A stretch of DNA of 64,000 nt, taken from contig NZ_VOUA01000001.1 of NCBI RefSeq assembly GCF_024372725.1, forward strand, positions 327,242-391,241, given 5' to 3'. The translations under genes were made by a program, and so were the position numbers. Each line of letters begins with the position of its first letter. The stretch's first letter is position 1. The notes under the pieces are model-generated. The model saw only the letters and a program-made list of their open reading frames with translations. It was not told the origin of the DNA and did not search any database. Below are positions 2,906 through 29,392 of the stretch, piece after piece. The stretch is from Methanosarcina sp. KYL-1. Its GTDB lineage: Archaea; Halobacteriota; Methanosarcinia; Methanosarcinales; Methanosarcinaceae.

Positions 2906-2917
2906 GGTGGTATAAGT

Positions 2918-4321
2918 ATGGCTACTGAATACATGACCCGCATGGGGGACGGTCGCAGAGTTTTCATGACCCGGGAAGATATCCTGGCTGACATTGAAGC
3001 TGGAGTTGCGGAAGGCGCTGACAGTGCTGAGGTGCCTGCTCTTTCAGAGGAGGAGATTGAACACCTGCTGGAAATTGTATGTGCTAAAGAAAGGATTGTA
3101 ACTGTTGAACCCGGAAATGAAATTGTCATGTCGCAGGACGGGGGTGCAATCTCAATAGACTCCGAACATACAAGTGGAGTTCCCAGTGGTCGGATCCTCG
3201 CGACCCTCATGTATGAAAGGGGCTTCTGTATGGATTCCATTGACTTTGGGCATACCGATTACAGCTTCAAGCCTGTAAAACCGTTGATTTCCGTGGAGTG
3301 CCAGCAGATGAGGTGGGTTCAGGAAGCAGTTACCGTTCCTGTGCTTTATGGTGCAATGCCCAATATGGGGCTGTACTATACTCCCGATGGCCCCTATGAA
3401 AATCCGGGAGACCTTATGAAAGCTTTCAAGATCCAGGAAGCAAGGGAATCCATTGAAAAATCTGCAGATCACCTGACAAGGGACATCATCTGGATCGTTC
3501 AGAAAATGATGAAGTCCGGGGGTGCAGACGGGATTAACTTTGACACTACCGGGGCTGCAGGGGATGGGGATTTCTTTGCTGCTCTCCGCGCAGTTGAATT
3601 CCTGAGAAAGGAGTTCCCTGAAATGTATATTGAAATGGGTATGGCAGGTGAAAGCATGCTGGGGATCCATGGGGAGCTTGAGTATAAGGGTAAAGCCGTG
3701 GCAGGCCTCTGGCCTCACAAACAGGTAGAGCTCGCTGCAGAGGCAGGGGCCAATGTCTTCGGGCCGGCTGTCAACACAAACACTACCAGATCTTTCGCCT
3801 GGAACCTTGCAAGGGCTGTGACCATTGTAAAGGAAGCTTCTAAGGTTTCTCCTATTCCCGTACACGTCAACATGGGTAACGGTGTTGGTGGCGTGCCTAT
3901 GTTTGAGCTCCCGACACTTGATGCTCTCTCAAGGGCAAACAAAGCCATGGTCGAACTGGCACATGTGGATGGCATATAGTCCGGATCCGGTGATTCCTTC
4001 AGTATGCGTGGTGTTCATGTTGCCACCTCGGGAATGACCGGTATGAGGGCTGCAGGCGATCTTGTGGCCAGGGTTGAGTTTGCAAAGAGCATGAAGATTG
4101 GCGATGCAAAAGCCTACGTGGCAAAGAAGCTTGGGGTTGATGTGATGGACCTTGCCGATGAGAATGCTATGAAGGAAGTCAGGGAGGAACTGGGGCTTGG
4201 AACTATGACCGAGTTCAGGGAAACGCCTAAGGGTATTGCTGCAAAGATGAATATCGAGAAAGTGCTTGATCTTAAAATCAACTCATGTGAGCTTTTCCGA
4301 AGCCTTGCAGGGTTTATTTAA
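2918..4321 (+). CDS. mtbB: Dimethylamine methyltransferase MtbB, pyrrolysine protein
   Basis: Transfers a methyl group from dimethylamine to the MtbC corrinoid, releasing monomethylamine. The frame contains one amber codon at 3977-3979 (codon 354) and continues in the same frame to TAA at 4319-4321, giving 467 residues. The segment before the amber ends in HVDGI, matching the VDGI-Pyl context of known MtbB, and the downstream part ([27 protein letters not shown]) continues the same family. The amber is therefore read as pyrrolysine, and the gene is neither a pseudogene nor two genes. The start follows GAGGTGG. Also seen: [16 protein letters not shown] and [15 protein letters not shown]. The pylT, pylS and pylBCD genes needed for readthrough are not in the window. 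Confidence 0.96.
3977..3979 (+). other. In-frame amber codon read as pyrrolysine (mtbB)
   Basis: TAG at codon 354 of mtbB, flanked on both sides by conserved MtbB sequence in one frame. This is the site occupied by pyrrolysine in characterised dimethylamine methyltransferases. Confidence 0.95.
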
Positions 4322-4480: not shown

Positions 4481-4582
4481 ATTTCTCATATATCTTGAGG
4501 TATTGTCTGGCTGTGATCAGAATCCTCTGTCAAAAATGTGTTTCCTCGTTAATATCAAATAAATGAATAGGTGGCTAAAAAA

Positions 4583-6073
4583 ATGATTAACAAGTCCTAC
4601 TCCGGTAAAAATTTGCTGGATGGTCTTTATCTTGGAGTACTTTCGCAGGATGAACTTAAGGCCATTCACGCTGCAACAGTAGACATATTTTCTGAATACG
4701 GAATCCTGGTGACCGATTCCGAAGCAAGGCAGATCTTCAAGGATGGAGGCTGTGATGTTGATGAAAACACAAAGATGGTAAAGATCCCTGAACATGTTCT
4801 TGAAGAGGCATTAAAGAAGGCCCCCTCCAGGTTCAAGCTTTACGGAAGGGACAAGAAATACAATCTTGTACAGGAGGCAGGCGGAGATACCCTCTGGACT
4901 AATTTCGGTATTGGCGTTAAGATGAGCGTCTATGACGAGTCAAAAGGGCGCTGTGTTGTTAGGAGCAGTACGGCTCAAGATGTTGCAGACACCGCAAAGA
5001 TGTGTGATTGGGCGGAGAATATGGACTTTTACACAGTTGCCGTGGCTGCTATGGATTGGACTGGCAAGGGTGCAGCTGACGTACACTCGACATACGAGGC
5101 CATTACAAACATTTCAAAGCCTGTGCTCCTTGCTCCGGAAGCCGAAAGCTTTGACTACTACATGGACATGATGGCAGCCTACTACGGGGGGGATATGGAA
5201 GAAGCCATCAAGAAACCTATCTGTTCCATGGCAGCATGTCCAACAAGCCCCCTGGAACTGGGTGACAATGTGTGTCAGATGACTATCAAGAGTGCCCGCA
5301 TCAAGTTCCCGAACAATATTATCAGTATGGCTATGTCTGGGGCCTCTTCTCCGGTCTTCCTCGCTTCTACCCTTGTTACCCACAACGCAGAGGTCCTCGC
5401 GACTCTTGTGCTTGCACAATTGACAGAGCCCGGCGCACCTTTCTGGTACGGTAGCTCAACCACAGGATTTGACATGAAGAGGGGCACGGCCCCGGTGGGT
5501 TCTCCTGAACTCGGGCTGCTCAGCGCAGCTGTCGCAAAACTTGCCCAGTTTTACAACCTTCCTTCCTTTGTGGCAGGCACCTAGGCCGACTCCAAGCTGC
5601 CTGACGCCCAGGCAGGGCACGAGAAAACTCTTACAAGCCTTCTTCCTGCCCTTGCCGGTGCAAACTCCATTTACGGAGCAGGCATGCTTGAGCTAGGTAT
5701 GACCTTTTCTATGGAACAGTTTGTGATAGACAATGACATTATAGGTATGATTAAGAAGAGCATGGAAGGAATTCCGGTTTCCGGGGAGACCCTGGCTGTC
5801 GAAGCTATCAAGAAAGTGGGAGCTGGAAATAACTTCCTCGGGCATAAGACCAGCCGGCAGAATATAGACCTGCCCTCCAACCCCAGGCTTTTTGACAGGC
5901 GTATGTATGGGGACTGGGAATCGGCAGGTTCAAAAGACACAATGGCAGCTGCACATGAAAAAGTTGTAGACGTCATGAAAAACCATGTGGTCAAACCCAT
6001 CGATTCTGATATCCTGAAGGATATGTGGGCCATAGTGAAAAAGGCCGATAAAGAACACGGCAGGCAATTGTGA
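4583..6073 (+). CDS. mttB: Trimethylamine methyltransferase MttB, pyrrolysine protein
   Basis: Demethylates trimethylamine and methylates the MttC corrinoid. A single in-frame amber lies at 5582-5584; the frame then runs on to TGA at 6071-6073, 496 residues in all. The context LPSFVAGT[19 protein letters not shown] matches known MttB around its pyrrolysine. I use the ATG at 4583 rather than the GTG at 4571, because AGGTGG lies 8 nt upstream of it and because it puts the amber at codon 334, the position I recall for Pyl in Methanosarcina barkeri MttB. Other motifs: KLCDWAEN-type [29 protein letters not shown] and [21 protein letters not shown]. It is followed 12 nt later by mttC. Confidence 0.96.
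5582..5584 (+). other. In-frame amber codon read as pyrrolysine (mttB)
   Basis: TAG at codon 334 counted from the ATG at 4583; conserved MttB sequence continues without frameshift on both sides. Confidence 0.95.
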
Positions 6074-6085
6074 GGAGATTCATAA

Positions 6086-6736
6086 ATGGCAACAAAAGAA
6101 GAAATTATTGCAAGGGCAAAAGCTGCAGTCCTTGATTTTGATGACGAAGCAGCAGAAGAAGTAGCTCAGGAAGCACTTGACGCAGGTATTAATGTCATAG
6201 AGATTATTGAGAATGGTTTTTCAGCAGCGTTGGGGAATGTCGGTGAAAGGTTCGAAAGTGGTGAACTCTTCCTTCCTCACCTGATTGCGGCTTCTGATGC
6301 CATGGGTGCAGGTATGAAGGTCCTTGCCCCTGCAGTTGAGGGGAAAATTAAGGGAGAAAAGATCGCTAAAGTGGTGCTCGGAACCATTGAAGGCGATATC
6401 CACTCCATCGGGAAAGATATTGTCGCTGCAATGCTCAAGATTGCCGGATTCGAAGTTATCGACCTTGGAAGGGATGTGCCTATAGATAAGTATCTGAGTG
6501 CCGCAAAAGAAAATAGTGCAGATGTTGTCGGTTCTTCCGCTCTCATGACGACCACAATGGTCAACCAGATCAAACTGGAGGAAGCTCTAAATGAAGCAGG
6601 CATTCGCGGTCAGGTCAAGACAATGGTCGGTGGGGCGCCTGTTACCCAGACCTGGGCAGATGAAATCGGTGCTGACATCTATGCCGAAAACGCCAGAGAC
6701 GCGGTAAGTCAGTTAAAGGGTATCTTTGCTAAATAA
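6086..6736 (+). CDS. mttC: Trimethylamine corrinoid protein MttC
   Basis: A 216-residue corrinoid carrier for MttB. It has the N-terminal cap domain (FESGELFLPHLIAASDAM) and the cobalamin-binding motif GDIHSIGK with His106 as predicted lower ligand, followed by VVGSSALMTTT and VGGAPVTQTWADEIGAD. The Ser in DIHSIGK separates it from the MtbC-type DVHDIGK at 2258. It starts 12 nt after mttB behind a GAGGAG-like site and is the last gene of the unit; a strong hairpin-T terminator follows. Confidence 0.94.
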   Translation: MATKEEIIARAKAAVLDFDDEAAEEVAQEALDAGINVIEIIENGFSAALGNVGERFESGELFLPHLIAASDAMGAGMKVLAPAVEGKIKGEKIAKVVLGTIEGDIHSIGKDIVAAMLKIAGFEVIDLGRDVPIDKYLSAAKENSADVVGSSALMTTTMVNQIKLEEALNEAGIRGQVKTMVGGAPVTQTWADEIGADIYAENARDAVSQLKGIFAK

Positions 6737-6943: not shown

Positions 6944-7300
6944 TCACATACTGCAGCCTCTGCACAACGCTTCGTCACATCCCATGTCCTTAAACTTCCA
7001 TTTTGCGCTCCATTTTTTGAGCTCCCATATTACCTGCATGAACTCTTCTCCGCATTCCGTGAGAAAGTACTCGGATTTCCCGGGCAGAACGGTTGTATCA
7101 ATTCTTTTTTCTATCAGTCCTTCCTGTTCGAGTTCGCCAAGGCTTGTGGAAAGGGCGGTTGGGGTTATGTTTCCGAGTTTTCTCTTCAGCTCGTTAAAGC
7201 GTTTTTCTTTCTTTTCGCCTTTGTAAAGTTCCAGCATGATTTCAATGGTCCATTTTTTCCCGATTATGTGGCTTGATTGGTATATGGCGCATTCTTTCAT
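6944..7300 (-). CDS. HxlR-family winged-helix regulator with Cys-rich tail
   Basis: A 118-residue HxlR/MarR-like DNA-binding protein: IIGKKWTIEIMLELYKG, RFNELKRKLGNITPTALSTSLGELEQEGLIEKR and TECGEEF are typical of the family. Cys residues at 4, 83, 108, 113 and 116 (CDEALCRGC at the end) are unusual and could bind metal or sense thiols (inference). It is divergently transcribed from the CGGC gene at 7442, which it probably controls together with itself. A TATA-like TTTATATAG lies only about 24-31 nt upstream of the ATG, so the mRNA may have little or no leader. Confidence 0.88.
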   Translation of the reverse strand: MKECAIYQSSHIIGKKWTIEIMLELYKGEKKEKRFNELKRKLGNITPTALSTSLGELEQEGLIEKRIDTTVLPGKSEYFLTECGEEFMQVIWELKKWSAKWKFKDMGCDEALCRGCSM

Positions 7301-7441
7301 AGTACAGAATTATAGACTGCCCACTATATAAACTAGTATAATTATTGTATCTAATATTAAATCTATACTTAGTACTCAAAAGATACCATATGCCTTTGAA
7401 GGCAGCCTGGAAATATCTCAGAACAAAAAGGAGTGATATCC
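7301..7441. promoter_or_regulatory. Divergent promoter region, HxlR gene / CGGC gene
   Basis: 140 bases of AT-rich DNA between the two start codons. It contains a TATA-like ACTATATAAAC (about 7322-7332) serving the minus-strand regulator, and imperfect inverted elements ACTAGTATA / TATACTTAGT that could be an operator. Only the HxlR-side TATA call is reasonably firm. Confidence 0.45.
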
Positions 7442-7774
7442 GTGACAGAAGAAATAAAACTCACAAAAATTGCAGTTGTCAGATGTGAAACCGTTTCAGA
7501 AAGTTGCCCGGGAACCGGTTGTTTTGCAGCCTTCAACGGGAAAATGGCCAGTTTTGCTGACTATGGTGTGAACGCGCAGATGGTTGCTTATTTCACCTGC
7601 GGGGGCTGTTCAGGGCGCAGGGTGGCTAATCTGATAGGGGAAATCAAAAAAGTTGAACCGGACGCCATTCATCTCAGTACCTGCATGGTAAAAAGCAGTG
7701 CCTGTCCCAACCTTGTTTACATCAAGGGAGTATTCGAGGAGGCAGGTATTAAAGTTGTGGAAGGAACTCATTGA
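7442..7774 (+). CDS. CGGC-domain protein
   Basis: A 110-residue protein with KIAVVRCETVSESCPGTGC at the N-terminus, TCGGCSGRRV in the middle and LSTCMVKSSACPN towards the end, the cysteine layout of the CGGC domain family, thought to bind metal or a cluster; biochemical function unknown. I start at the GTG at 7442, because AAAGGAG ends 8 nt upstream; an in-frame GTG at 7433 overlaps that ribosome site. Its position beside the Cys-rich HxlR regulator and the methylamine operons suggests a redox or metal-linked accessory role (inference). Confidence 0.82.
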   Translation: MTEEIKLTKIAVVRCETVSESCPGTGCFAAFNGKMASFADYGVNAQMVAYFTCGGCSGRRVANLIGEIKKVEPDAIHLSTCMVKSSACPNLVYIKGVFEEAGIKVVEGTH

Positions 7775-10926: not shown

Positions 10927-11211
10927 TTACATTAAGTATTCAAGGGCTCTGGACTTTCCTTCCTCTGAGATTTTGAATCTGTACAGCACTTTGCCTTTCC
11001 CGAAGTGTGTGCCGTCATCTACTGCCACTTCCGTGACATGGAACAGTCCACTGGAAACAAGTTCTGCTGTCCAGAAACGCACGGTCCATCGCCAGCGCTT
11101 ATTGCTTTTTCCATACTCCTCAAGAACCTGGCTGACAAGCTCGTAGTCCCATGCCTCATCTTTTTTCTCATAGAGGAGCTGGAGAAGTCTACTTTTCATT
11201 GGAAGTTTCAT
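10927..11211 (-). CDS. Small winged-helix-like protein (cassette copy 1)
   Basis: A 94-residue protein (MKLPMKSRLLQLLYEKKDEAW...). It is a clear paralogue of the 97-residue protein at 14888-15181: both have KS-L-LLYEK-EAWDYELV, a Trp-rich helix (W-W-V-RFWT-EL) and a VAVDDG-HFG-KVLYRF hairpin followed by a C-terminal helix. The helix-helix-helix-wing order looks like a winged-helix domain (inference from pattern, not a profile hit). It lies 22 bases downstream of the DMT permease gene. It could regulate the cassette, or be a cytoplasmic partner of the transporter. Confidence 0.75.
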   Translation of the reverse strand: MKLPMKSRLLQLLYEKKDEAWDYELVSQVLEEYGKSNKRWRWTVRFWTAELVSSGLFHVTEVAVDDGTHFGKGKVLYRFKISEEGKSRALEYLM

Positions 11212-11233
11212 TTTTCTTCTCCCTTTCTATTTT

Positions 11234-12445
11234 TCAGGAACTTTCGACTTCTCTGGTTGTTTCGAGAATGGTGTCTTTGCTTTCCCAGTACATGACAAAG
11301 GTCCCTCCTATTGTGATCAGGGACCCGACGAGGAGCCACCATTTGAATGACTCTCCAAGGAAGAGGGAGAGTGACATAATTGCAAATATCACGTAAAAGG
11401 TGGAAATGCTCTGGCCCCGCCCCGCTCCTATTAGTACGTAGGACTTGTACATCCCGATATAGGCGGCTGCAAAGGATGCGGATGCGAGAGCTTCCCAGAA
11501 TATAAATTGTGGGTTTGTGTATGCGGCAATAAACACCGTGCTTATGGTATCAAACCCGAATATCAGGGAGGCGGCTGGAATCATTATGCAGATCCATATC
11601 AGGGCATCCCATATCAGGCGGACTGTAACGCAGGCTTCAGTGTCGCAAAGGTCTGAAGTGCGTCCTGCAACGGTAGCTTCCATTCCCCACCCAAAGGCTG
11701 CCATCAATCCTCCAACATATCCAAGCCATGAGCTGCCAGAGTTTGAAATTTCTTCAATCAGTTTAAGGGGATTCCATATGAATGCCCCTCCGATGATTGT
11801 GAATACTATGGCAGTTATTGTCCTTTTGTTTATTTTTTCCTTGTACCAGAGTCTTGCCGTAAGGGCGGCTATCGGTCCGCAAAGCAGGGCCGCGGATGCA
11901 GAGAATGATCCTCCTATATATCCAACTGCAAGCGTGCTTCCGTAAAGTGCAAATACGCCTCCGCAAAAACCGGCCAGCAACAGCCATTTTGATATTTTGG
12001 GGTTAAAGAAGGTCCTGTAAACTTCCGACATTTTTCCCTGCCCGACAACGAAGAGAAGTGCAAAAATAAAAGGGTCTCCGATAGACAGCCCGGCTGATGC
12101 AAGGAGGGTGGCTATAAAATGCCCGTGTTCACTCGGAAAAACCGTCGGATCATTAAGTGGGTATACATGCCATAGAGCTGAAAGTGGGATGTATCCAATT
12201 CCCCATAAAAATGCCCCTATCAGTGCCCAGGTAAACCCCCATTTTATTCTGTTTTTCTTTTCATTCACTATGCAGCTCTCAATGTCAATATTTTCCCAAC
12301 TAAGCTGCTTTTTCTGATTTTCATACTCTCCGTTTTCAAGGCATGTTTTTATTCTAACCCCTCCGTTTTTGCACAAAATTATTCTTCCTTTTTTGCAACT
12401 CTCCGGTTTTGGTCGTGGGGGTGAGTTCCTGAAAACCGTAGGCAT
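11234..12445 (-). CDS. DMT-superfamily permease (cassette copy 1)
   Basis: About 403 residues with some ten hydrophobic segments in the EamA-type arrangement. It is paralogous to 15184-16311: EKKNRIKWGF before the first helix, AVGYIGGSFSASAALLCGPIAALTARLWYKEK, GRTSDLCDTE, IGMYKSYVLIGAGRGQSISTFYVI and MYWESKD all have counterparts. The N-terminal 60 residues are poorly conserved and the start is uncertain; ATG at 12445 is chosen over one at 12475. It is probably an uptake or efflux system for a methylated amine-type substrate, given the surrounding methyltransferases; genes called methylamine permeases occur at such places in Methanosarcina. The substrate is not readable from the sequence. Confidence 0.85.
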   Translation of the reverse strand: MPTVFRNSPPRPKPESCKKGRIILCKNGGVRIKTCLENGEYENQKKQLSWENIDIESCIVNEKKNRIKWGFTWALIGAFLWGIGYIPLSALWHVYPLNDPTVFPSEHGHFIATLLASAGLSIGDPFIFALLFVVGQGKMSEVYRTFFNPKISKWLLLAGFCGGVFALYGSTLAVGYIGGSFSASAALLCGPIAALTARLWYKEKINKRTITAIVFTIIGGAFIWNPLKLIEEISNSGSSWLGYVGGLMAAFGWGMEATVAGRTSDLCDTEACVTVRLIWDALIWICIMIPAASLIFGFDTISTVFIAAYTNPQFIFWEALASASFAAAYIGMYKSYVLIGAGRGQSISTFYVIFAIMSLSLFLGESFKWWLLVGSLITIGGTFVMYWESKDTILETTREVESS

Positions 12446-12475
12446 AAGAATCTCTTTGTATCTTTTCCCAAACAC

Positions 12476-12951: not shown

Positions 12952-14466
12952 TTATGCTTCTTTCATATGAGATATGGGGTCAGTTCTCATGGACGATGGC
13001 TCTTTTCCTGAATTCGGGTTTTTTGGTGCAAAATCCAGCTCTTTTTCTCCAAAAATCATATATTCGCGCTCTTCTTCGCTTATAGAATTCCTCTCGTTTG
13101 TTGCCATGTAGTAAAACACCACTCCCAGTAACATCCAGGCGAGGAATGTGGCCCATTCAACGGAATTTATTGCGCCAGGACTTCCAGGTACAACCATCAT
13201 CATTACCATTAAGGCGGTAATGAGAGTTGCTAAGTATCCTGTCTTGATGCCTCCGGGCATCTTAAAGGGCCTTTCCATTTCGGGTTCGATTTTTCTCAAT
13301 CTAACGGCTGAGAGGCAGACAAAAAGCCATGCGAGCATGAAGGAAAGTGCGCCCACACTCATTACAGGAATCAGAATGGCAGTTCCTACGAATGGGGCAA
13401 TTATAGTGATTATACTCACAAAAATTATGGCATTCTTTGGGGTCCGGCATCTCTCATCAACTTTTCCAAAGTATGTGGGGATGAGTTTTGCGCGTCCCAT
13501 ACTGAAAATCAGCCTGGTTGATGCAACGAAGAAAGCATTTAACGTGCTTAGCAACCCGCAGACAGCTCCAATTAAAACAAGTCTGCCGATGAAGGGGGCT
13601 ACACCCATTATCGCGTCGGCGGCCGGATACTCAAGATTTATGAGGCTTTTCCAGGGCATAAGCAGGGCAACGACAAATATTATGGTGCTGTAAAATATTG
13701 CCCCTGATAAGGGTGTTATGCTCAGGACTTTTCCCAGGTTATGGTAACTTATTCCCGACTTACTTTCTTCTGCTCCCTGGGGAATTGTATCAAAACCTGC
13801 TACGAAGAAGGGGGTGATTGCAAGCACTGCAATAATGCCTCCCAATGTTCCGAATCCTTCTATGGAATGTCCCATGTAGGGCTGGAGGTTTGAGGCATCT
13901 CCGAGTAAAACGCCGGCAAATGCATAGGCAATTCCACACAGTATCAGGAGTTTTGTGATGGAGGACTGAAATTTAGCAGCTTTTTCGACACCCTTGTAGT
14001 TAATGTACGCGATAGAGAGGGCCACAATCAGCTCCAGCATAAGGAGGGGAAAGTATACTTCAAATCCCATTATTTCATAGAGTGGCATTGTTTTTAGTCC
14101 GGGGAAGATGCTTGATGCAATGGTGCCGACAGCTACTGCTTCCCAGGGGCAGAGAAATACATAAGCAAATGATAGTATCCATCCAGTATAAAAAGAGGCT
14201 TTAGGGCCAAATCCTCTGTAGGTATAGGCGATCTCTCCTCCTGCCACTGGCATGGAAGAGACCATTTCTCCATATGTCCATGTGACTGGGAGCAGAATTG
14301 CTCCTCCTATAAGAAATGCAATTATTGCGGCCAGAGGCCCTCCTGCAGTCCCTATCCAGTCGCCAACACAGACGACCCAGCCAATCCCTACCATTGAACC
14401 GAAGCCCAGGGTGAAATAATCGAAAAGTCCCATCGTTTTCTTCAGTTCGTGCCTTTCAATATGCAT
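12952..14466 (-). CDS. APC-family amine/amino acid permease
   Basis: A 504-residue transporter with about twelve membrane segments. The APC signature is near the N-terminus (FDYFTLGFGSMVGIGWVVCVGDW), followed by GGPLAAIIAFLIGG, PVAGGEIAYTYRGFGPKASFYTGW and TPKNAIIFVSIITI. The family exchanges or imports amino acids, polyamines or amines with protons or sodium. It lies between the two DMT cassettes and close to amine methyltransferases, so methylamine or a related N-methyl compound is a plausible substrate (inference). The C-terminus is a hydrophilic tail of about 50 residues. It appears to be its own transcription unit, with 285 bases before the cassette microprotein gene upstream. Confidence 0.9.
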   Translation of the reverse strand: MHIERHELKKTMGLFDYFTLGFGSMVGIGWVVCVGDWIGTAGGPLAAIIAFLIGGAILLPVTWTYGEMVSSMPVAGGEIAYTYRGFGPKASFYTGWILSFAYVFLCPWEAVAVGTIASSIFPGLKTMPLYEIMGFEVYFPLLMLELIVALSIAYINYKGVEKAAKFQSSITKLLILCGIAYAFAGVLLGDASNLQPYMGHSIEGFGTLGGIIAVLAITPFFVAGFDTIPQGAEESKSGISYHNLGKVLSITPLSGAIFYSTIIFVVALLMPWKSLINLEYPAADAIMGVAPFIGRLVLIGAVCGLLSTLNAFFVASTRLIFSMGRAKLIPTYFGKVDERCRTPKNAIIFVSIITIIAPFVGTAILIPVMSVGALSFMLAWLFVCLSAVRLRKIEPEMERPFKMPGGIKTGYLATLITALMVMMMVVPGSPGAINSVEWATFLAWMLLGVVFYYMATNERNSISEEEREYMIFGEKELDFAPKNPNSGKEPSSMRTDPISHMKEA

Positions 14467-14887: not shown

Positions 14888-15181
14888 TCAGATCAGGAGT
14901 TCCTCAGCCCTTTCTTTCCCAAGTGCTGTCATCTGGAACCTGTACAGTACCTTGTCTGTCCCGAAGTGGCTTCCGTCGTCAACGGCAGCTTCTACGACTT
15001 TGAAGATATTTGAGGCCGCAAGTTCTATTGTCCAGAAACGAATGACCCATTTCCAGTAATCTGTGGTCTTTCTGGACTTCTCCTGAATTTCATGTACAAG
15101 CTCGTAATCCCAGGCTTCGCCTTTTTCATAAAGCAGTTTTACAAGCATGCTCTTCATTGTCAGTTTGCTGTCGTCTGCCAT
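14888..15181 (-). CDS. Small winged-helix-like protein (cassette copy 2)
   Basis: A 97-residue paralogue of 10927-11211 (LTMKSMLVKLLYEKGEAWDYELV, RFWTIELAASNIF, VDDGSHFGTDKVLYRFQMT, C-terminal GKERAEELLI). The pattern of helices and a beta-hairpin suggests a winged-helix fold. It begins 2 bases after the DMT permease stop and precedes the microprotein by 12 bases, so the three are a tight operon. Not assigned to a named family. A role as regulator or as permease-associated protein is inference. Confidence 0.78.
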   Translation of the reverse strand: MADDSKLTMKSMLVKLLYEKGEAWDYELVHEIQEKSRKTTDYWKWVIRFWTIELAASNIFKVVEAAVDDGSHFGTDKVLYRFQMTALGKERAEELLI

Positions 15182-15183
15182 AT

Positions 15184-16311
15184 TCAGGCCTCCTTAACGA
15201 CTCTGGTTCCGTCTGTCATTGAGTCGCTGCTTTCCCAGTACATATATACGGTACCGAATACAGCCAGTGCAGAGCCGGCTACAATCCACCACTTCAGAAC
15301 GTCTCCCATGAAGAAGTAAAGGGTAAGGAATCCTGGAATTATGTACAGGGTTGCAATGCTCAAACCGCGGCCTGCACCAATCAACGGGAAGGATCTGTAC
15401 ATCCCCACATAGGCTGAGAACAGTGACATTACATAGAGCACTTCCCATATCCAGTATGCGGGGTGCTGGTATATGTGTGCCATTGCCCCGATCATCGTGT
15501 CAAACCCGAAGAGCAGGATTGCAAGGGGAAGGCAAAAGAAGGTCCACCAGAAGAAATCAAAGATTCCGCGGCATGTCATGTTCATGGAATAATCGTATAC
15601 ATCGGCTACACGTGCAACAAACACTCCTTCAAGGCCCCATGCAAGTGCTGCCAGCATACCGCCAACGTAACCGATCCATGCATCCTTGGTTGCCGGATTT
15701 GCAAGGTCTTGAAGCAATGCATAAGGGTTGAATACAAAAATCCCACCAAGAACGATAAATAAAATCCCAATCATTGCTTTTTTATTCAATTTTTCATGAT
15801 ACCATAAGTTTGCAACAATTGCAGCAATCGCACCCGTGAGAAGGCTCGCTGCGGCAGCAAAAGAGCCACCTGCATAAGCAACGGCAAGCTGGTATCCTCC
15901 TACTCCTATCGGGCTTGCAATTAATGTCGCAAGGAGCATGGTTTTCGAAATTCTAAGATTGGATATTGCCTTTGGCACATCGGATAGTTTGCTTTCTCCA
16001 AGATCCCAGAACAACGTGGTAACAAAGACTTTAGTAATTCCGGCTCCAAAGGCGATTGTAACCATTGCAACAAGGTATCCTGTATATCCTTCGGGAAAAA
16101 CTGCGGAATTACTCATATCGGGGATTTTCCAGACTGCTACGGACGGGACATATCCCATTCCCCATATAATGGCAGCCAGGATTCCCCAGATGAATCCCCA
16201 CTTTATTCTGTTCTTTTTCTCCTTTCCAATCAAGTCGCCAAGCTTTGAACTTGCATATTCTGCATGTTCTTTCGTGTTGAACGGCCTTTTGTTTTCTGAC
16301 ACGTTTTCCAT
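15184..16311 (-). CDS. DMT-superfamily permease (cassette copy 2)
   Basis: A 375-residue EamA/RhaT-like transporter with about ten membrane helices. Features: KNRIKWGFIWGILAAIIWGMGY as helix 1, YAGGSFAAAASLLTGAIAAIVANLWYHEKL at the end of the first repeat, GLEGVFVARVADVYDYS, IGMYRSFPLIGAGRGLSIATLYIIPGF and a final MYWESSDSM. It is the first gene of the cassette with 14888-15181 and 14753-14875. The ATG at 16311 follows AGGAGGATAACATGG-type sequence. Homology to 11234-12445 is clear outside the N-terminus. Substrate unknown; a methylated nitrogen compound is suggested by context. Confidence 0.88.
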   Translation of the reverse strand: MENVSENKRPFNTKEHAEYASSKLGDLIGKEKKNRIKWGFIWGILAAIIWGMGYVPSVAVWKIPDMSNSAVFPEGYTGYLVAMVTIAFGAGITKVFVTTLFWDLGESKLSDVPKAISNLRISKTMLLATLIASPIGVGGYQLAVAYAGGSFAAAASLLTGAIAAIVANLWYHEKLNKKAMIGILFIVLGGIFVFNPYALLQDLANPATKDAWIGYVGGMLAALAWGLEGVFVARVADVYDYSMNMTCRGIFDFFWWTFFCLPLAILLFGFDTMIGAMAHIYQHPAYWIWEVLYVMSLFSAYVGMYRSFPLIGAGRGLSIATLYIIPGFLTLYFFMGDVLKWWIVAGSALAVFGTVYMYWESSDSMTDGTRVVKEA

Positions 16312-17151: not shown

Positions 17152-18534
17152 TTATTCTTTTACTTCCAGGCCCATATCACTAATTTTTGCCTTTGTCCCC
17201 TCCCAAAGGTCTACGAATTCTTTTGAAGGCCTGTTGGTTCTCAGATCATAGCATTCGTAGAACTTCTTTCCGGGCTCCGGCTTGAAGGTTGAAGGATTGT
17301 CTCCTCCGTACATTTTAATGAATTCCACGACAAATTCATTTGCTTCCTTCAAACTCATGCCTGCAAATGCACTGCTTGCTCCGTCAAGGATCCTTGAATT
17401 CATTCCCGAGTATTCGTTTTCGTGGATTGCGTCGCATGAAATTGCACCCTGGATTGCATCGGAGCCGGCAGAGACTGCTGTGCCGCCTATTGCAAAGGTT
17501 TCATAAATCATCCTTTCCGTACACATCCCTGATGAGGCTCCACAGTATACCTGTATCAATGCATTTGTATTCTGGGTCATTGCAGCAGTCATTGAACCTA
17601 TTGCAAAAATGCCCTCATTGAACACCTGATGTCCTGTAACAACATCAAAGGGTGGAGTGACATAAATACAGGGTCCGCCGAGTAGGAGGAAGGATGCAAT
17701 GCATTCTGCTGTCAAGCCGATTGCGGTTGTTTCTGGCCCTCCCAGATATCCTCCCAGCAGGGGTGCCATACAGTTGGCTATTCCAAGGTTGTTATACTGA
17801 CAGTATAGGGACTTTTTAAGCACGTCCCAGTCCACTTTCATGTCATTCAGGAGGGAAACCAGCAGCCTGTCAGAGGAGCGGAGTCCTTCCGGGGCATGCC
17901 CGAAACACTGCCCCTCGCTGCTTGATGCGCTCATAGTCCCCGTGATCGAGAGCCCCGGCCTTCCGGCTCTGCGGAGTGCCTCCCTCGTCATCTCGATTTC
18001 TCTTCTTGCGGCAATCATTTCTGCCGTGGTATTGGACTTTATTTCTGAACCGTTGATTGTTTCCAGAGTTGCTGTGTGCAAACCTCTCACGCAGGGTTCC
18101 TGGGCAAAGGACTGCATGAGGGGGATGTAGTATTCTTCTGAAATGGGGGCTCCACACGGTCCTCCGATTATTGGGGGGAGTCTCTTGCTTTCAAAACCTC
18201 TTTTTACCACCTGGCATTTTTCATTTCCTTCTCCCATTGTATATTCCCCGGGAAGGAGCCTGAGGTGGTGCTTTATTTCAGATTCTTCGAATTTTATGAT
18301 GCGCCCTGTTGATTCATTATAAAATCCTACATCAACGAGAAGGTCTACTGCTGCATTAAATATGTTTTTTATGTAGCTAGGGTCTGAAGGAACAATTTCC
18401 TCCGGGGTAAAAGAAATATCGTACTCACTCGCGAGTTCGTACAGTTTTGTGGGTAGGGTTATATTTGAAAATTCAGTCTCATCCTGCTGTCTTCCTTCAA
18501 TTGAACGTATGTATATGTCCCATGGGTCTAACAT
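17152..18534 (-). CDS. MtmB-family methyltransferase lacking pyrrolysine (Thr at the site)
   Basis: A 460-residue protein of the monomethylamine methyltransferase family: IIGGPCGAPISEEYYIPLMQSFA, GRPGLSITGTMSAS, LLGGYLGGPETTAIG, CTERMIYETFAIGGTAVSAG and KKFYECYDLRTNRPSKEF. In MtmB the motif is GRPGMGV-Pyl-GPETS; here the pyrrolysine position is Thr198 (ITGT), and no amber codon exists in the frame. It lies 23 bases downstream of a corrinoid-protein gene on the same strand, so it most likely methylates that corrinoid. Without Pyl, which in MtmB binds and orients the amine, the substrate should differ from monomethylamine (inference by analogy with Pyl-free MttB-family enzymes such as MtgB). 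ATG 18534 follows GGTGATAAC. Confidence 0.9.
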   Translation of the reverse strand: MLDPWDIYIRSIEGRQQDETEFSNITLPTKLYELASEYDISFTPEEIVPSDPSYIKNIFNAAVDLLVDVGFYNESTGRIIKFEESEIKHHLRLLPGEYTMGEGNEKCQVVKRGFESKRLPPIIGGPCGAPISEEYYIPLMQSFAQEPCVRGLHTATLETINGSEIKSNTTAEMIAARREIEMTREALRRAGRPGLSITGTMSASSSEGQCFGHAPEGLRSSDRLLVSLLNDMKVDWDVLKKSLYCQYNNLGIANCMAPLLGGYLGGPETTAIGLTAECIASFLLLGGPCIYVTPPFDVVTGHQVFNEGIFAIGSMTAAMTQNTNALIQVYCGASSGMCTERMIYETFAIGGTAVSAGSDAIQGAISCDAIHENEYSGMNSRILDGASSAFAGMSLKEANEFVVEFIKMYGGDNPSTFKPEPGKKFYECYDLRTNRPSKEFVDLWEGTKAKISDMGLEVKE

Positions 18535-18557
18535 GTTATCACCTTCTTCCTTCTCGA

Positions 18558-19202
18558 TTACGCCTTAGCGATCAGTTTTTGTGCAACTCTTACAGCATCC
18601 ATTGCGTCTTCCGCATATGCATCGGCCCCTATCTGGTCGGCATATCCCTGGCTTACGGGAGCCCCTCCGACCATGATCTTAAACTGCTCCTCACATCCCA
18701 TGCTGTTTCGAAGTTCCACTACGTCCCTCAGGTATGGCATGGTTGTGGACATAAGGGCGGAACACGCAACAATGTCTGCCTTATTTTCTTTTGCGGCTTC
18801 GAGATACTTTTTTACGGGGACATCTTTTCCGAGGTCGATAACTTCCATCCCTGCAGTTTTCAACATGACGGCGACAATGTTCTTTCCAAGATCATGGATG
18901 TCTCCTTCGATCGTACCAATAATTACTTTTCCAGCGCATTTAGCTTCGGATACGTCCAGAGCATCGATCAGCATCTTATTTGATTTTTCCATTATGCCGG
19001 CAGCAAGTACGACCTGGGGCAGGAAAAATTTCCTCTGGTTAAACCTTTCTCCTACTTCGATCATCGCATCTGCCAGAGTCTTCATAACCGTTGAAGCGCT
19101 GATATTGTTATTCAGGCACTCTTTGACGGCACTGGTTGTTTTGTCAGAGTTTATTGCTAAAAGTGAATCATAAACTGATTTGAGTAATTCTTCTTCTGCC
19201 AT
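18558..19202 (-). CDS. Corrinoid protein of the MtmC/MtbC/MttC family
   Basis: A 214-residue methyl carrier with the N-terminal cap domain (IEVGERFNQRKFFLPQVVLAAGIM) and the cobalamin motif GDIHDLGK (His103 as predicted lower ligand), then ACSALMSTTMP and VGGAPVSQGYADQIGAD. It is divergent from MtbC and MttC of this window. It is the first gene of a two-gene operon with the Pyl-free MtmB homologue at 17152-18534 and divergent from another such homologue at 19611. Likely receives a methyl group from one or both, and passes it to a CoM methyltransferase encoded elsewhere. Confidence 0.92.
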   Translation of the reverse strand: MAEEELLKSVYDSLLAINSDKTTSAVKECLNNNISASTVMKTLADAMIEVGERFNQRKFFLPQVVLAAGIMEKSNKMLIDALDVSEAKCAGKVIIGTIEGDIHDLGKNIVAVMLKTAGMEVIDLGKDVPVKKYLEAAKENKADIVACSALMSTTMPYLRDVVELRNSMGCEEQFKIMVGGAPVSQGYADQIGADAYAEDAMDAVRVAQKLIAKA

Positions 19203-19610
19203 GTTCCAACCTTTTTATTTGATTTATTTTATCAGTAAAATATTAGGGTTTTTATCAACCAATCAATACTTTTTTGTTATATTATTTATAATTTTCTATT
19301 CAATGCGAAATGTTTATATATAATTTAGTTTCACTACTTATTTGGTTACGGAATTTATATGCTCAAATATTGTGAACTACCATGATGAACGGGAAACTCT
19401 CTGAAAATTTCAATTTAATTGATACTCCTTCGAGAAATAATATGTTCTTTCACATGGGGACATAGGATTCATTTTTCTCCTTCCGCGGAGCTTCGGAATC
19501 TGTTCTCTCTATATTTTTTCAGGGTTTTGCCTGAAGTAAAAATCAAGATGATCCGGACAGTTATGAGAGTTTTAATGTCTTAATATAAGATAAATAAAGG
19601 AAGACGTTGA
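19203..19610. promoter_or_regulatory. Divergent promoter region of the MtmB-like divergon
   Basis: 408 bases between the corrinoid-protein gene (minus) and the MtmB-like gene (plus). GTTTATATATAAT at about 19311-19323 is a strong TATA candidate, and further A/T-rich elements lie at 19255-19295. The plus-strand gene is preceded by AAAGGAAG. No clear palindrome was found. Confidence 0.5.
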
Positions 19611-20966
19611 ATGGAATATTTCATTTCCAAGATGCTGAATGGAAAAGAAAGAACTGAAAGTGAACATGAGCGTTTAATTTACCGAAATTCCCTTGAACTG
19701 GTTGAAGCCCATGATCTTACTTTTGATCCCGAATATCCGGTACCTGTGGATATGAGACTGGCAGACCGTGTTTTCAGTGCAGCTCTCAACTTGCTGGAAG
19801 AAGTTGGAGTTTATTCCACAGATACAAAGAGAGTGGTTGAGTTCTCCAAAAGTGAAATGAGGCAGTGCATCAGAAACTCCCCATTTTCTTTTAGAATAGG
19901 GAGCAATGCAGATTCAACAGAGGTCAGGTTCAGAAATGTGCTTGATGAACGGACCCCGTTGATTATCGGGGGGCCCTGTGCAGTTCCTATAACTGATGAT
20001 TTATTTCTTCCGGTTCACCGGTCTTATGCAAAAATAAATCGGGTTGATTCGGTTGCACCTGCTTCGTATCATTGTTCTGAATATCCACGCTACAGGTTAA
20101 AGAAGAGTCCGCTTAACATGTATGAGGCTCATAAGGCGGTTAAGTTGATCAAAGAAGCCTGCAGAGTTGAAGGGCGCCCTGATATCTGTTGCGTAAGCCC
20201 TCCTTTTATTGATGATGTTAGAACCGCGCTTTCCATATCAGACCCTCAGTTTATGGGTAGGGGGGACCTGGAGGAGTTGTATCCGAAACCCGATTTGAAA
20301 GCGGATCTTGATCAGATGGCGAGAGTCATTCATTATCGTGGTGTGGGGGTGTACTATGTGTCCTCCTCCATGTTATTGATGGGTGGCATCACAAGTGCCA
20401 CTCCCGAACAATTTGCAATTGAAATGACTGCAGAGATCTTAAAAAGCAGAATCCTTTACTCTTGTCCCCTTAGTTTTGTTCATCCTAACCATCTTCGAAG
20501 TCCGGCTTCCAGGTCTCTGGAAGTGTTGTGGGCTTCCTTTATCACTTCCATGGCAATTACAAGGAACTCTGATCTTCTTCACGGCATTGTGGTCAACAAT
20601 TCTTCCGGTCCCTGTACAGAGTCAATGATGTACGAAACTGCCGTGCAGACGATAGGGAGCACTGTTTGCGGTGCCGATTCGCTCTCTGGCCCGGTTTCAA
20701 ATGCAGGTAATGAACTGAACCATGCTGCGGGTCTGGATGCTCTTTTCATGGCAGCGGTTTCTGAACTCTCGGTATCCCTCTCTCTAAAGGATGCAAATGA
20801 TCTATGTCTTATTTTGTTCAATGAGTATCGGGACAAAAAGCCTGAGTTTGGAAAAAAGTTTGATGAATGCTATGATCTCTCAAGAATTGAGCCTTCAGAA
20901 GAATATCTTGACATATACGAGAGGGCAATGGAACATATATATGAACTGATAAGTGAAAGCCTGTGA
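19611..20966 (+). CDS. MtmB-family methyltransferase lacking pyrrolysine (Val at the site)
   Basis: A 451-residue protein, closest in this window to the partial gene at 1-480 and more distant from 17152-18534. Family features: LIIGGPCAVPITDDLFLPVHRSYAK, EGRPDICCVSPPF, SGPCTESMMYETAV, FGKKFDECYDLSRIEPSEEY. In the MtmB alignment GRPGMGV-Pyl, the pyrrolysine position corresponds to Val195 in GRPDICCV. The neighbouring Cys193 and Cys194 are not seen in MtmB. No in-frame amber. Divergent from the corrinoid gene at 18558-19202, with which it probably works. It ends before a convergent HyuA-type gene. Function as a methyltransferase is inferred from the fold; the substrate is unknown. Confidence 0.88.
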   Translation: MEYFISKMLNGKERTESEHERLIYRNSLELVEAHDLTFDPEYPVPVDMRLADRVFSAALNLLEEVGVYSTDTKRVVEFSKSEMRQCIRNSPFSFRIGSNADSTEVRFRNVLDERTPLIIGGPCAVPITDDLFLPVHRSYAKINRVDSVAPASYHCSEYPRYRLKKSPLNMYEAHKAVKLIKEACRVEGRPDICCVSPPFIDDVRTALSISDPQFMGRGDLEELYPKPDLKADLDQMARVIHYRGVGVYYVSSSMLLMGGITSATPEQFAIEMTAEILKSRILYSCPLSFVHPNHLRSPASRSLEVLWASFITSMAITRNSDLLHGIVVNNSSGPCTESMMYETAVQTIGSTVCGADSLSGPVSNAGNELNHAAGLDALFMAAVSELSVSLSLKDANDLCLILFNEYRDKKPEFGKKFDECYDLSRIEPSEEYLDIYERAMEHIYELISESL

Positions 20967-21228: not shown

Positions 21229-23160
21229 TTACCCCTCTTTAGCTTCCCTTATCCCCACGCCCATAACCATCAGTTTCGTCTCCATTGGGGGGTGGTTCCA
21301 GCCGTCGGGGGAGATCGTTTTTTTCTCAATGGAAATCTCGACCTGGGGTCCGCTTAAGCCGCAGTCTTTCATGTAGTCCCCAATAAGCTTTTTTCCGAGG
21401 GCTGTGGCTGTGTCAAGGGCATCGGTGTAGATTTCGAACTTCAGCCTGCCTGTGGGGGAAAAGACAAGAAAGCCCTTATCGGGAGACATCAGGCTTTCGG
21501 GCCGGATCAGGATTTCAACCCTTTTGATGCCTTTTCCCACCAGGGCTCCTACTGCGTTTCCCACCTCGGCGTGTTCGGGGACCTGGACTTCCGCATCTAT
21601 GAGCTCTTTTATTTCCTCTCTGTATGCCCGGACAGGGCCTCCGAGCAGGACTATGGGAATTCCCAGTTTGAATTTTGCAGGGTAGTTTCCGTCAAGGATT
21701 TTTTCAACGGCTGTTTCGGGGACTCCTGCCAGGATATAGGAGAGCAGGTGAAGGGTCATGCTCATTGCAACCTGTTTTTTTACGGCAGTGCAGAACTCGT
21801 GGGGGGTCATGCGCATGAGCCTTGAAAGGCGTTCGGCCCCTATGCGGGAAGCTTCTTCGTTCCAGTCCGTGTAGTCCCCAAGCACATGCAGGGCATCGGT
21901 AGGGGTAAAGCCGATTGCCTGGACAAGCCGCTTCTTTATAAGGGAGTCAAGGGTCTGGGGGATCGGGTCTTTTTTGATAAGCTTTCCTATCTCGTCGATG
22001 GAGAGGGGTTCGTCTCCGAGTACATTCAGGATTTCGGCTTCCGAAACGCTCAGTTCCCCTGCAGGGTAGCCGGACCGCAAGAAGAATTTTGTGGGCTGGA
22101 CGTTTTCACAGAGATCTTCTCTGGCAGGCATGGGGGTCCTTTTTAACATGTTCAGGAAATCGGGGTACTGCATCGCGGCCACCGAAAGGGGTATGACTCT
22201 CCGCGGGCCGATGAAAAGTTCTCTGTTCATCGTCCAGACGTGGCTGTCCCCGCCCATCGCCGTGGTCTCCATTTTAATTGCCCTTACGCGGGTCTTCCAC
22301 CCGCCCACAACGGCGCCTTCATCGCTCAGGTCGGGCACGCCCCCGCAGATCGAGGAAATGTCCGTGCTTGTCCCGCCCACGTCCACAACGGCGCAGGTCT
22401 CAAGCCCCGAGAGGTAGGAAGCCCCGACAAGGCTTGCCGCAGGCCCGGAAAAAATGGTCTCGATGGGCTTTTGCAGGGCATCCCTGATCCCAACCACGGA
22501 ACCGTCGCATTTGAGCATGAGGAGCCTTGCATTGATGCCCCTTTCCTTTATGTCGGTAATGATTGACTGCGCAAACTGCCGGGTTATGGGGATTAGCTGG
22601 GCGTTTAGAAAAGCGGTTACTGCCCTTTCGTAAGCTCCCAGTTCCTGGGAGAGCTCGTGCCCGCAGACCGCAGGCAGGCCCGTAAGTTCAAGGACCCGGT
22701 CCCTTGCTTTCAGTTCATGTTCGGGGTTCCGGGTGCTGAAGTAAGAAGAAATGGCAAAAGCAGACACCTTGCCCTTTACCTTCAGGGCAAATTTCTCAAT
22801 GGCCTCGAGGTCCAGGGGTACGTTTTCTTCCCCGTTATGGTTGTGTCCGCCTGCGGCAAAAAGGACATGTTTTGTGGGCAGTTCCTTTTCAAGGGGGTGG
22901 TCTCCTATAAGGATCAGGGCAACTGGGAACCCCGTACCCTCCAGGATCGTATTGGTAGAAAGAGTAGTTGAAACCGAGACCAGTTTTACATTTTCGAGAT
23001 GTTCAGGTTCCAGGCCGTTAAGCACGTTTTTAATGCCGGTCAGGGGGTCAGGGTAGGTAGTAAGCGCTTTGTTTGAAGCTATAATGGCGCCGTCAGAGTC
23101 TCTTATGAGCACTGCATCCGTGTAAGTTCCGCCTGCATCAATCCCGAGGCTGTAATGCAT
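21229..23160 (-). CDS. Stand-alone HyuA-type hydantoinase/oxoprolinase family protein (copy 1)
   Basis: A 643-residue ASKHA-fold protein: GIDAGGTYTDAV at the N-terminus, STTLSTNTILEG, HELSQELGAYERAVTAFLNAQL, the second phosphate loop VVDVGGTSTDIS and GGDSHVW. The family hydrolyses hydantoins or 5-oxoproline with ATP, normally with a HyuB partner, and no HyuB is present here. About 60% of the positions I compared are the same in 27470-29392. Distantly, the ATPase fold is shared with proteins that reductively activate corrinoids, so a role in corrinoid-protein activation or in opening a cyclic N-methyl substrate are both possible (inference). It ends convergent to the Pyl-free MtmB homologue. 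The C-terminal region carries DGWNHPPMETKLMVMG, also found in copy 2. Confidence 0.85.
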   Translation of the reverse strand: MHYSLGIDAGGTYTDAVLIRDSDGAIIASNKALTTYPDPLTGIKNVLNGLEPEHLENVKLVSVSTTLSTNTILEGTGFPVALILIGDHPLEKELPTKHVLFAAGGHNHNGEENVPLDLEAIEKFALKVKGKVSAFAISSYFSTRNPEHELKARDRVLELTGLPAVCGHELSQELGAYERAVTAFLNAQLIPITRQFAQSIITDIKERGINARLLMLKCDGSVVGIRDALQKPIETIFSGPAASLVGASYLSGLETCAVVDVGGTSTDISSICGGVPDLSDEGAVVGGWKTRVRAIKMETTAMGGDSHVWTMNRELFIGPRRVIPLSVAAMQYPDFLNMLKRTPMPAREDLCENVQPTKFFLRSGYPAGELSVSEAEILNVLGDEPLSIDEIGKLIKKDPIPQTLDSLIKKRLVQAIGFTPTDALHVLGDYTDWNEEASRIGAERLSRLMRMTPHEFCTAVKKQVAMSMTLHLLSYILAGVPETAVEKILDGNYPAKFKLGIPIVLLGGPVRAYREEIKELIDAEVQVPEHAEVGNAVGALVGKGIKRVEILIRPESLMSPDKGFLVFSPTGRLKFEIYTDALDTATALGKKLIGDYMKDCGLSGPQVEISIEKKTISPDGWNHPPMETKLMVMGVGIREAKEG

Positions 23161-27469: not shown

Positions 27470-29392
27470 TCACGCGCTTGCGTAGTTTCCGGTGCCCAGG
27501 AAGACCAGTTTTGTCTCCATGGGGTTTTTCCAGCCATCAGGCACGATTTCTCTTTTGTCTATTTCGATCCGGATCTTGCCGGGGTCAAGGCCCGAGTCGG
27601 CCATGTAGTCCATTATCAATTTTTCTCCCAGGCTGTGAGCATGGTCAAGGGCTTCTCCGTAATGTCCGAACCTTTCCCTTCCCCTCTCCGAAAAGACGAA
27701 GAATTCCAGGTCAGGAGCTGCCATGGATACAGGCCTTATCAGGATTTCGGCTCTGCGTACTCCTTTTGCGGCAAGGGCTCCGGCTGCGTTTCCTGCTTCC
27801 GCATGTTTCGGGACTACGATTTCCGCATCAAGGATATTCTTCAACTCTTCCTGATAGGCGACAACCGGGCCCCCGATAAGGACCACCGGGACTTCCACTT
27901 TGAATTTTGCGGGAGATTCGAGGTCAAAGATTTTCCTGACCTCGGTTTTATCGACTCCATCCAGGAAGAACGATATGAGTCCCGAGGCCATGTTTCTGGC
28001 AAACTCTTTCTTTATATGCCTGGCAAATTCCTCTTTTTCCATCCCCACAAGGGACCCGAGCATCGCTGCTCCTATTTCCGAAGCCTCAGTTTCCCATTCT
28101 GTATAGTCCCCGAGCACGTGGAGGGCGTCAGTAGGGGTAAACCCGACTGCCTGGATCAGGCGCTTCTGGAGCAGGGAGTCCAGCTGGTAGGATGCAGGAT
28201 ACTTTCCAAGGCGGGTGTACATCTCGGAAACGGATGTAGGCGTTTCGCTTACCGCATCCAGGACTTCCTTTTCCCCTTTGCTGATCTCTATTGGCCTGTA
28301 CCCTGTCCTGATGTAGAACTTTGTGGGCTGGAAATTGATCCCCATGATTATTTTCGAGGGCATGGGGTTTACTTTCAACTGCTGCAGGAAACCCAGGTAA
28401 AGTGAAGCCGCCCTGCAGAGCGGAATTACCCGGTGGGGTCCGATGGTAATCTTTTTTTCTTTGACCCAGACGTGGCTGTCTCCCCCCATTGCCGAGGTCT
28501 CCATTTTTATCGCCCTGACCCGGGTCGTCCAGCCTCCAACTACGGCTCCGGCTTCGCTCATCTCAGGGACCCCGTTTTTGATCATGGAAATGTCCGTGCT
28601 CGTACCTCCCACGTCGATCATGGCGCAGGTATCCTTTCCGCTCAGGAAAGCGGCTCCCACCAGGCTTCCCGCAGGGCCCGAAAAGATGGACTCGATGGGT
28701 TTTTCCAGGGCCTTTTTGATTCCCACGACGGACCCGTCGCATTTGAGCATCAGGACTTTTGCCTCCATCCCGCGGCTTTCTATTTCTTTTACCACGGTCT
28801 GCATGAATTTCTCGGAAATCGGGATTAACTGGGCGTTAAAAAAAGCAGTTACAGCCCTTTCGAAGGCTCCCAGGTCCTGGGAGAGTTCGTGGGCACAGAC
28901 CACGGGCAGGCCGGTAAGTTCAAAAACGGCTTTCTTTACGGCAATTTCGTGTTCGGGGTTTCTTATGCTGAAATAGGACGAAACCGCAAATGCCGATACC
29001 TTTTCTTTAACTTCCAGGGCGAATTTCTTCACAGCTTCAAGGTCAAGGGGAGCGGCCTCTGCCCCGTTGTACCCGTGCCCACCGTTTACCTGAATATAGT
29101 GGGGGGTCGGAAGTTCTTTTGTGAGGTCATAGTTCCCGACAAGGATCAGCCCTACCGGGAAGCCTGTCCCTTCCAGGATCGTGTTGGTGGAAAGGGTGGT
29201 AGAAACCGATACGACTTTTACGTTTTTTATGTACTCTTTGTCCAGCCCGTCAATTGCGTTTTTAATGCCTTCGAGCGGGTCAGGGTATGTCGTAAGCGCC
29301 TTGCTTACCGCGATGACGGTGTCATCCCTGTTCCTGACAATTACGGCGTCGGTGTAGGTACCTCCTGCATCAATACCAAGGCTGTAGTGCAT
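27470..29392 (-). CDS. Stand-alone HyuA-type hydantoinase/oxoprolinase family protein (copy 2)
   Basis: A 640-residue paralogue of 21229-23160: GIDAGGTYTDAVIVRN, KALTTYPDPLEGIKNA, STTLSTNTILEGTGFPV, HELSQDLGAFERAVTAFFNAQLIPI, AMIDVGGTSTDIS, AIKMETSAMGGDSHVW and GFTPTDALHVLGDYTEW. The ASKHA nucleotide-binding motifs are intact, so it should bind ATP. No HyuB subunit is encoded nearby. It is downstream, on the same strand, of a hypothetical gene and a DUF1638 gene (29850-31230), with gaps of about 450 and 150 bases. The role of these single-subunit proteins in methanogens is unknown to me. An MITE-like element sits 9 bases past the stop. Confidence 0.85.
   Translation of the reverse strand: MHYSLGIDAGGTYTDAVIVRNRDDTVIAVSKALTTYPDPLEGIKNAIDGLDKEYIKNVKVVSVSTTLSTNTILEGTGFPVGLILVGNYDLTKELPTPHYIQVNGGHGYNGAEAAPLDLEAVKKFALEVKEKVSAFAVSSYFSIRNPEHEIAVKKAVFELTGLPVVCAHELSQDLGAFERAVTAFFNAQLIPISEKFMQTVVKEIESRGMEAKVLMLKCDGSVVGIKKALEKPIESIFSGPAGSLVGAAFLSGKDTCAMIDVGGTSTDISMIKNGVPEMSEAGAVVGGWTTRVRAIKMETSAMGGDSHVWVKEKKITIGPHRVIPLCRAASLYLGFLQQLKVNPMPSKIIMGINFQPTKFYIRTGYRPIEISKGEKEVLDAVSETPTSVSEMYTRLGKYPASYQLDSLLQKRLIQAVGFTPTDALHVLGDYTEWETEASEIGAAMLGSLVGMEKEEFARHIKKEFARNMASGLISFFLDGVDKTEVRKIFDLESPAKFKVEVPVVLIGGPVVAYQEELKNILDAEIVVPKHAEAGNAAGALAAKGVRRAEILIRPVSMAAPDLEFFVFSERGRERFGHYGEALDHAHSLGEKLIMDYMADSGLDPGKIRIEIDKREIVPDGWKNPMETKLVFLGTGNYASA

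Follow-up and report, generated by a model that had tools for sequence, protein, structure and literature searches.

The 64,000-nucleotide stretch of DNA analysed here (the window) covers positions 327,242 to 391,241 of contig NZ_VOUA01000001.1 of Methanosarcina sp. KYL-1, and contains two divergent genes for complete MtmB-family proteins without pyrrolysine (Pyl). Protein A (17152–18534, minus strand) has 460 amino acids and its gene ends in TAA, and protein B (19611–20966, plus strand) has 451 amino acids and a TGA stop. Both match the full Pfam MtmB profile PF05369 (326 bits over profile positions 3–450 for protein A and 287 bits over 8–447 for protein B, with a cut-off of 25). This was the sole Pfam match of either protein, the MTTB profile PF06253 not being matched, and a search of NCBIfam returned no model naming protein A or protein B. 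The AlphaFold2 models (pLDDT 92.8 for protein A and 93.7 for protein B) match the crystal structures of MtmB1 from Methanosarcina barkeri (PDB 1NTH, 1L2Q; 28% identity) over their full length, with TM-scores of 0.91–0.95 and a VIA Z of 56.9 for protein A; both proteins retain the overall fold and many of the residues that are invariant in the family. MtgB and the non-Pyl MttB superfamily (COG5598; PDB 2QNE, 9YCE) offer a parallel, as they too are Pyl-free TIM-barrel relatives of a Pyl enzyme and act on a quaternary amine, but they form a separate family, with 12% identity and a Z of about 24 (57 for MtmB).

The Pyl column was read from an alignment of proteins A and B with 57 TAG-bearing MtmB proteins of Methanosarcinaceae. 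It holds Thr198 (codon ACG) in protein A and Val195 (codon GTA) in protein B, and neither reading frame contains an in-frame TAG. In a pairwise alignment of protein A with the 1L2Q crystal sequence, Thr198 also falls beneath Pyl202. The original prediction, made from the DNA sequence alone, that both are complete MtmB-family proteins with threonine and valine in place of pyrrolysine is thereby confirmed, far beyond chance. The pocket was compared by residue alignment. Glu229, Glu259, Gln333 and Tyr335 of MtmB, which we take to have roles around the pyrrolysine, are invariant across the 57 Pyl proteins. The corresponding residues are Leu225, Cys255, Tyr330 and Gly332 in protein A; protein B retains Glu222 at the Glu229 column and has Ser252, Val327 and Asn329 at the other three. 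Compared with MtmB1, both proteins therefore lack pyrrolysine at position 202 and the full set of four residues, and only protein A has lost Glu229. Because they belong to the MtmB family, lack pyrrolysine and have a rebuilt pocket, proteins A and B are very probably corrinoid methyltransferases with a substrate other than monomethylamine. Pfam-based annotation would label both as monomethylamine methyltransferases, very probably wrongly.

A tree of 47 sequences drawn from 112 Methanosarcinaceae genomes resolved the Pyl-containing MtmB proteins and three further clades, A, B and C, each with 100/100 support. Clade A holds protein A, and clade B holds protein B together with a third non-Pyl copy that is 62% identical to it. 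Only the C-terminal part of this third copy lies in the window (1–480, plus strand); the complete gene (G000:C1:326375–327721) starts outside the left edge and reaches window base 480. Proteins A and B share 27% identity, each is about 30% identical to Pyl-MtmB, and their separate clades do not fit the original view of them as one new class. Clade A is split between three proteins of a single genus (g7), which we infer to be Methanococcoides, and a group formed by protein A and three paralogues from G035, the metagenome-assembled genome “Methanosarcinaceae archaeon STD2_68”. Protein A shares 52–60% identity with these paralogues and 44–47% with the Methanococcoides-like members, two of which are 77% identical to each other. 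The search beyond Methanosarcinaceae covered Halobacteriota and not the bacterial members of the family reported in the literature (PMC13044021); in samples of 393 Halobacteriota genomes, strict cut-offs recovered clade A only from this genome and the three g7 genomes, and clade B only from this genome and two others. At the four pocket columns, clade A has Leu or Thr, Cys in all members, Tyr or His, and Gly, Ser, Val or Phe, and the pair Cys255-Met256 is invariant within it. Clade B keeps Glu229 and has Ser, Thr, Ala or Asp, then Val, Thr or Asp, and mostly Asn at the remaining columns. Judged by these aligned residues, the pockets of the two clades are rebuilt differently.

A gene for a corrinoid protein (18558–19202, minus strand) is located 23 nt upstream of the protein A gene. 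Its product matches PF02310 and PF02607, carries the cobalamin-binding motif DIHDLG at residue 101, and scores 198 bits against the MtbC model NF041607, below the cut-off of 350. In a tree it groups with the corrinoid proteins adjoining clade A elsewhere (support 100/99), and this group stands apart from MtbC, MttC and MtmC and has an internal split that mirrors that of the enzymes. A corrinoid gene is found directly upstream of the clade A gene in the window and in all five stretches outside it. In the other clades an adjacent corrinoid gene was seen at one clade C locus only (L121), and its product joins the 100/99 clade on a long branch. The dedicated corrinoid protein proposed in the original prediction is thus present for protein A, but protein B has no corrinoid gene directly upstream.

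The premise that no Pyl-free branch of the MtmB family had been characterised no longer holds. Methanococcoides methylutens Q3c has a non-Pyl MtmB homologue, MtqB (ACT9XH_RS04775), which was abundant together with its corrinoid protein MtqC (ACT9XH_RS04770) on tetramethylammonium and choline and not on trimethylamine (Kashyap et al., Front Microbiol, 19 March 2026; PMC13044021). After partial purification, MtqB transferred methyl groups to cob(I)alamin from tetramethylammonium and choline at 37 and 42 nmol/min/mg, respectively; it was weak with monomethylamine (11 nmol/min/mg) and inactive with trimethylamine and glycine betaine (PMC13044021). The mtqB gene, the “unique member” located downstream of the pyl operon, comes after mtqC, an mtbC-like gene whose product is separate from MtbC, MttC and MtmC (PMC13044021). 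The MtqB branch comprises Methanococcoides and Methanosarcina sequences, with an identity figure of 78–87%, and conserved Met and Cys residues lie near the ligand; the other non-Pyl MtmBs were assigned no function (PMC13044021).

We infer that clade A, with its corrinoid genes, is the MtqB/MtqC lineage, because a corrinoid gene of the MtqC type lies directly upstream in the published order, because these corrinoid proteins form a clade of their own as MtqC does, and because the 77% identity of the g7 pair is close to the published figure. The invariant Cys255-Met256 is consistent with the Met and Cys that MtqB conserves near its ligand. Protein A clusters at 100/100 with the three Methanococcoides-like proteins taken as MtqB and its gene lies directly downstream of a distinct corrinoid gene; protein B falls elsewhere in the tree and lacks this arrangement. 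Clade C was also considered as the MtqB lineage and rejected: at seven of the eight clade C loci read no corrinoid gene is adjacent, and the published branch includes Methanosarcina, a genus in which no clade C member was found among the 112 Methanosarcinaceae genomes. Clade C (L115–L122, L083–L102; e.g., L117:8369–9718) occurs widely across other genera of Methanosarcinaceae; in most cases no corrinoid gene adjoins it, Met mostly occupies the Pyl column, and Glu229 is kept. We know of no function for it.

Several observations weigh against reading protein A as an MtqB and protein B as its functional relative. The MtqB sequence of strain Q3c is itself absent from the tree, which makes the identification of clade A indirect. 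In none of the three Methanococcoides-like genomes does the clade A gene lie near pylS, whereas the published mtqB comes after the pyl operon. Apart from its modest identity to the Methanococcoides-like members, protein A differs from them in having Gly332 for Phe, Ala257 for Cys, and Thr198 where they carry Val, Gln or Ile. Protein B is without any functional anchor. With such identity and pocket differences, the substrate of protein A may differ from that of MtqB, and specificity for choline and tetramethylammonium is not simply transferable to it. Protein A might belong to the MtqB lineage and yet have shifted to a different methylated amine, for example N,N-dimethylethanolamine, some other trimethylammonium compound or a tertiary amine, with the paralogues of STD2_68 as substrate variants. 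The sequence distance within clade A, the pocket residues specific to its subgroups and the additional permeases in the operon region would suit such a shift. We nevertheless regard it as less likely than not, as gene order, corrinoid clade and Cys255-Met256 are all shared, and MtqB is itself promiscuous, so activity on choline or tetramethylammonium may persist. A quaternary ammonium compound is the best-supported type of substrate, at least for protein A.

The original prediction went further and proposed a wholly new corrinoid methyltransferase class with an N-, S- or O-methyl substrate. Non-Pyl relatives of MtmB may indeed do other things, since the MtmB-superfamily protein Ga0180325_111810 of the bacterium “Ca. 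Formimonas warabiya” DCMF is strongly induced by dichloromethane (PMC9768040). That protein is set alongside protein A by description; it is likewise a Pyl-free MtmB relative, but its association is with growth on dichloromethane only. A change of substrate is very probable, as described above; an S- or O-methyl substrate finds no support, and the new class as a whole is highly improbable given the tie of clade A to the published MtqB lineage and a genomic setting of methylamine metabolism. Protein A is best described as a divergent representative of a kind already known, and protein B is where novelty appears to remain.

No characterised member of clade B was found in the literature. Most clade B loci lie near genes for Pyl-dependent MtbB/MtbC or MttB/MttC without a corrinoid gene directly upstream, and one copy is located beside a transporter of the BCCT betaine/choline type. 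Protein B is probably a paralogous Pyl-free methyltransferase for a related methylated amine, and the proximity of clade B genes to MtbC or MttC at most loci suggests that it borrows such a corrinoid protein, for which the MtbC or MttC encoded in the same genomic island would be candidates. Protein B and the third copy could tentatively be taken as a second, functionally distinct Pyl-free lineage that keeps the Glu229 equivalent, relies on a corrinoid protein borrowed from a Pyl system, and acts on an amine that is new as a methanogen substrate, in which case the MtmB fold would have become Pyl-free more than once. Alternatively, the two might assist the Pyl-dependent use of dimethylamine or trimethylamine, for example by demethylating a co-occurring amine with MtbC or MttC as methyl acceptor. 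This is a serious possibility, though short of even odds: the neighbourhoods of clade B and the BCCT-type transporter point towards it, but the argument is one of neighbourhood, and no such genes were seen on the G026 and G045 stretches that were available. It is improbable that protein A, protein B or both are paralogues without catalytic function, for example regulators or binding proteins. Their catalytic columns are lost and protein B has no corrinoid partner, but MtqB is active without pyrrolysine (PMC13044021), the protein A gene is paired with a corrinoid gene, and both proteins keep the fold and many residues of the family. One further clade B gene, L111:6590–7954 (G042 C23), is broken by an in-frame TGA or a frameshift, which may reflect gene decay or a fault in the assembly.

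The joint explanation that we consider best, with a probability of roughly two in three, is that protein A and the corrinoid protein at 18558–19202 are an MtqB-lineage/MtqC-like pair for direct methyl transfer from a quaternary ammonium compound, and that protein B is a Pyl-free methyltransferase paralogous to protein A. Protein A, an MtmB-type TIM barrel, would bind choline, tetramethylammonium or a close analogue where pyrrolysine, Glu259 and Gln333 lie in MtmB, and the vacated space could fit the larger substrate. The cob(I)amide of the corrinoid partner would then remove one methyl group in a direct SN2 attack. A Pyl adduct would be dispensable because the quaternary nitrogen, with its positive charge, can serve as a leaving group as it stands. 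MtbA would pass the methyl group on to coenzyme M and RamA would re-reduce oxidised corrinoid; the genome carries MtbA-type and RamA-type genes, as well as pylS. Were tetramethylammonium the substrate, the trimethylamine released could be used by the Pyl enzymes of the island. Protein B would likely follow the same chemistry. If this explanation is true, protein A extends quaternary-amine methanogenesis from choline and tetramethylammonium to a Methanosarcina, by way of an apparently acquired island. As a diverged MtqB relative it could help to identify which pocket residues take the place of pyrrolysine. The lineage marked by protein B is conserved, and with defined genes at hand the function of Pyl-free MtmB enzymes can be put to the test.

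On the minus strand, the corrinoid gene and the protein A gene are followed by an EamA-like permease and its small neighbour, an APC-type permease and a second permease pair. The EamA-like permease (15184–16311, minus strand) is of a kind that adjoins methyltransferase genes in relatives and probably carries a methylated amine. Next to it is a gene for a 97-amino-acid protein without a family match (14888–15181, minus strand). The second pair (10927–12475, minus strand) consists of another EamA-like permease copy (11234–12475) and its small neighbour (10927–11211). These small proteins of 94–97 amino acids have no Pfam or NCBIfam match, recur beside EamA-like permeases in several genomes and are possible permease partners. 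The APC-type permease (12952–14466, minus strand), a probable substrate permease, shares 26% identity with a permease whose gene adjoins a Pyl-MtmB fragment at another site in the genome. The divergent intergenic region of about 400 bp between the protein A operon and the protein B gene (19203–19610) contains a TATA-like element, TTTATATATAA, near 19313 and presumably has a promoter role; no clear operator repeat was found in it.

All three Pyl-free MtmB copies lie inside a lineage-specific island of about 23 kb, which has its ends at about −1.8 and 21.2 kb (G000:C1 ~325460–348486) and occupies 1–21245 of the window. In all four other Methanosarcina genomes compared, the genes that flank it here (one ending near −1.8 kb and an ASKHA gene at 21.2 kb) lie directly side by side, so the whole island looks like an insertion in this lineage. 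Its GC content is slightly lower (43.5% vs. 45.5 and 46.6%). No convincing repeats were found at its edges, no integrase was seen and the plasmid search gave no match. The island also encodes a Pyl-dependent dimethylamine system (2258–4321, plus strand), with MtbC at 2258–2905 and an MtbB with an in-frame TAG at 3977–3979, and a Pyl-dependent trimethylamine system (4571–6736, plus strand), with an MttB whose in-frame TAG lies at 5582–5584 and MttC at 6086–6736. A hemL-like gene (glutamate-1-semialdehyde aminomutase; 564–1967) may boost the supply of tetrapyrrole or corrinoid, and a gene 77% identical to it is found beside clade B and MtbBC genes in G035, where clade A, clade B, Pyl and hemL-like genes recur over several contigs. 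An HxlR-type regulator (6944–7300) and a CGGC-domain protein (7433–7774) are 76–81% identical to a pair beside clade A in G035 contig C99, and are possibly the regulatory pair of the system.

The hydantoinase-like ASKHA gene beside protein B (21229–23160) was considered as a corrinoid activator and rejected, since most Methanosarcina genomes contain its ortholog at 79–85% identity with or without these MtmB genes, and since it forms the right-hand boundary of the island. Its product is 61% identical to a second ASKHA protein of this type (27470–29392). Most of the Methanosarcinaceae genomes searched carry one to nine strong copies of this family, some of them close to clade C genes. Elsewhere in the genome, on contigs C27 and C47 of G000, two Pyl-MtmB genes are cut at the contig ends (profile residues 2–261 only), probably by an assembly break at near-identical copies.

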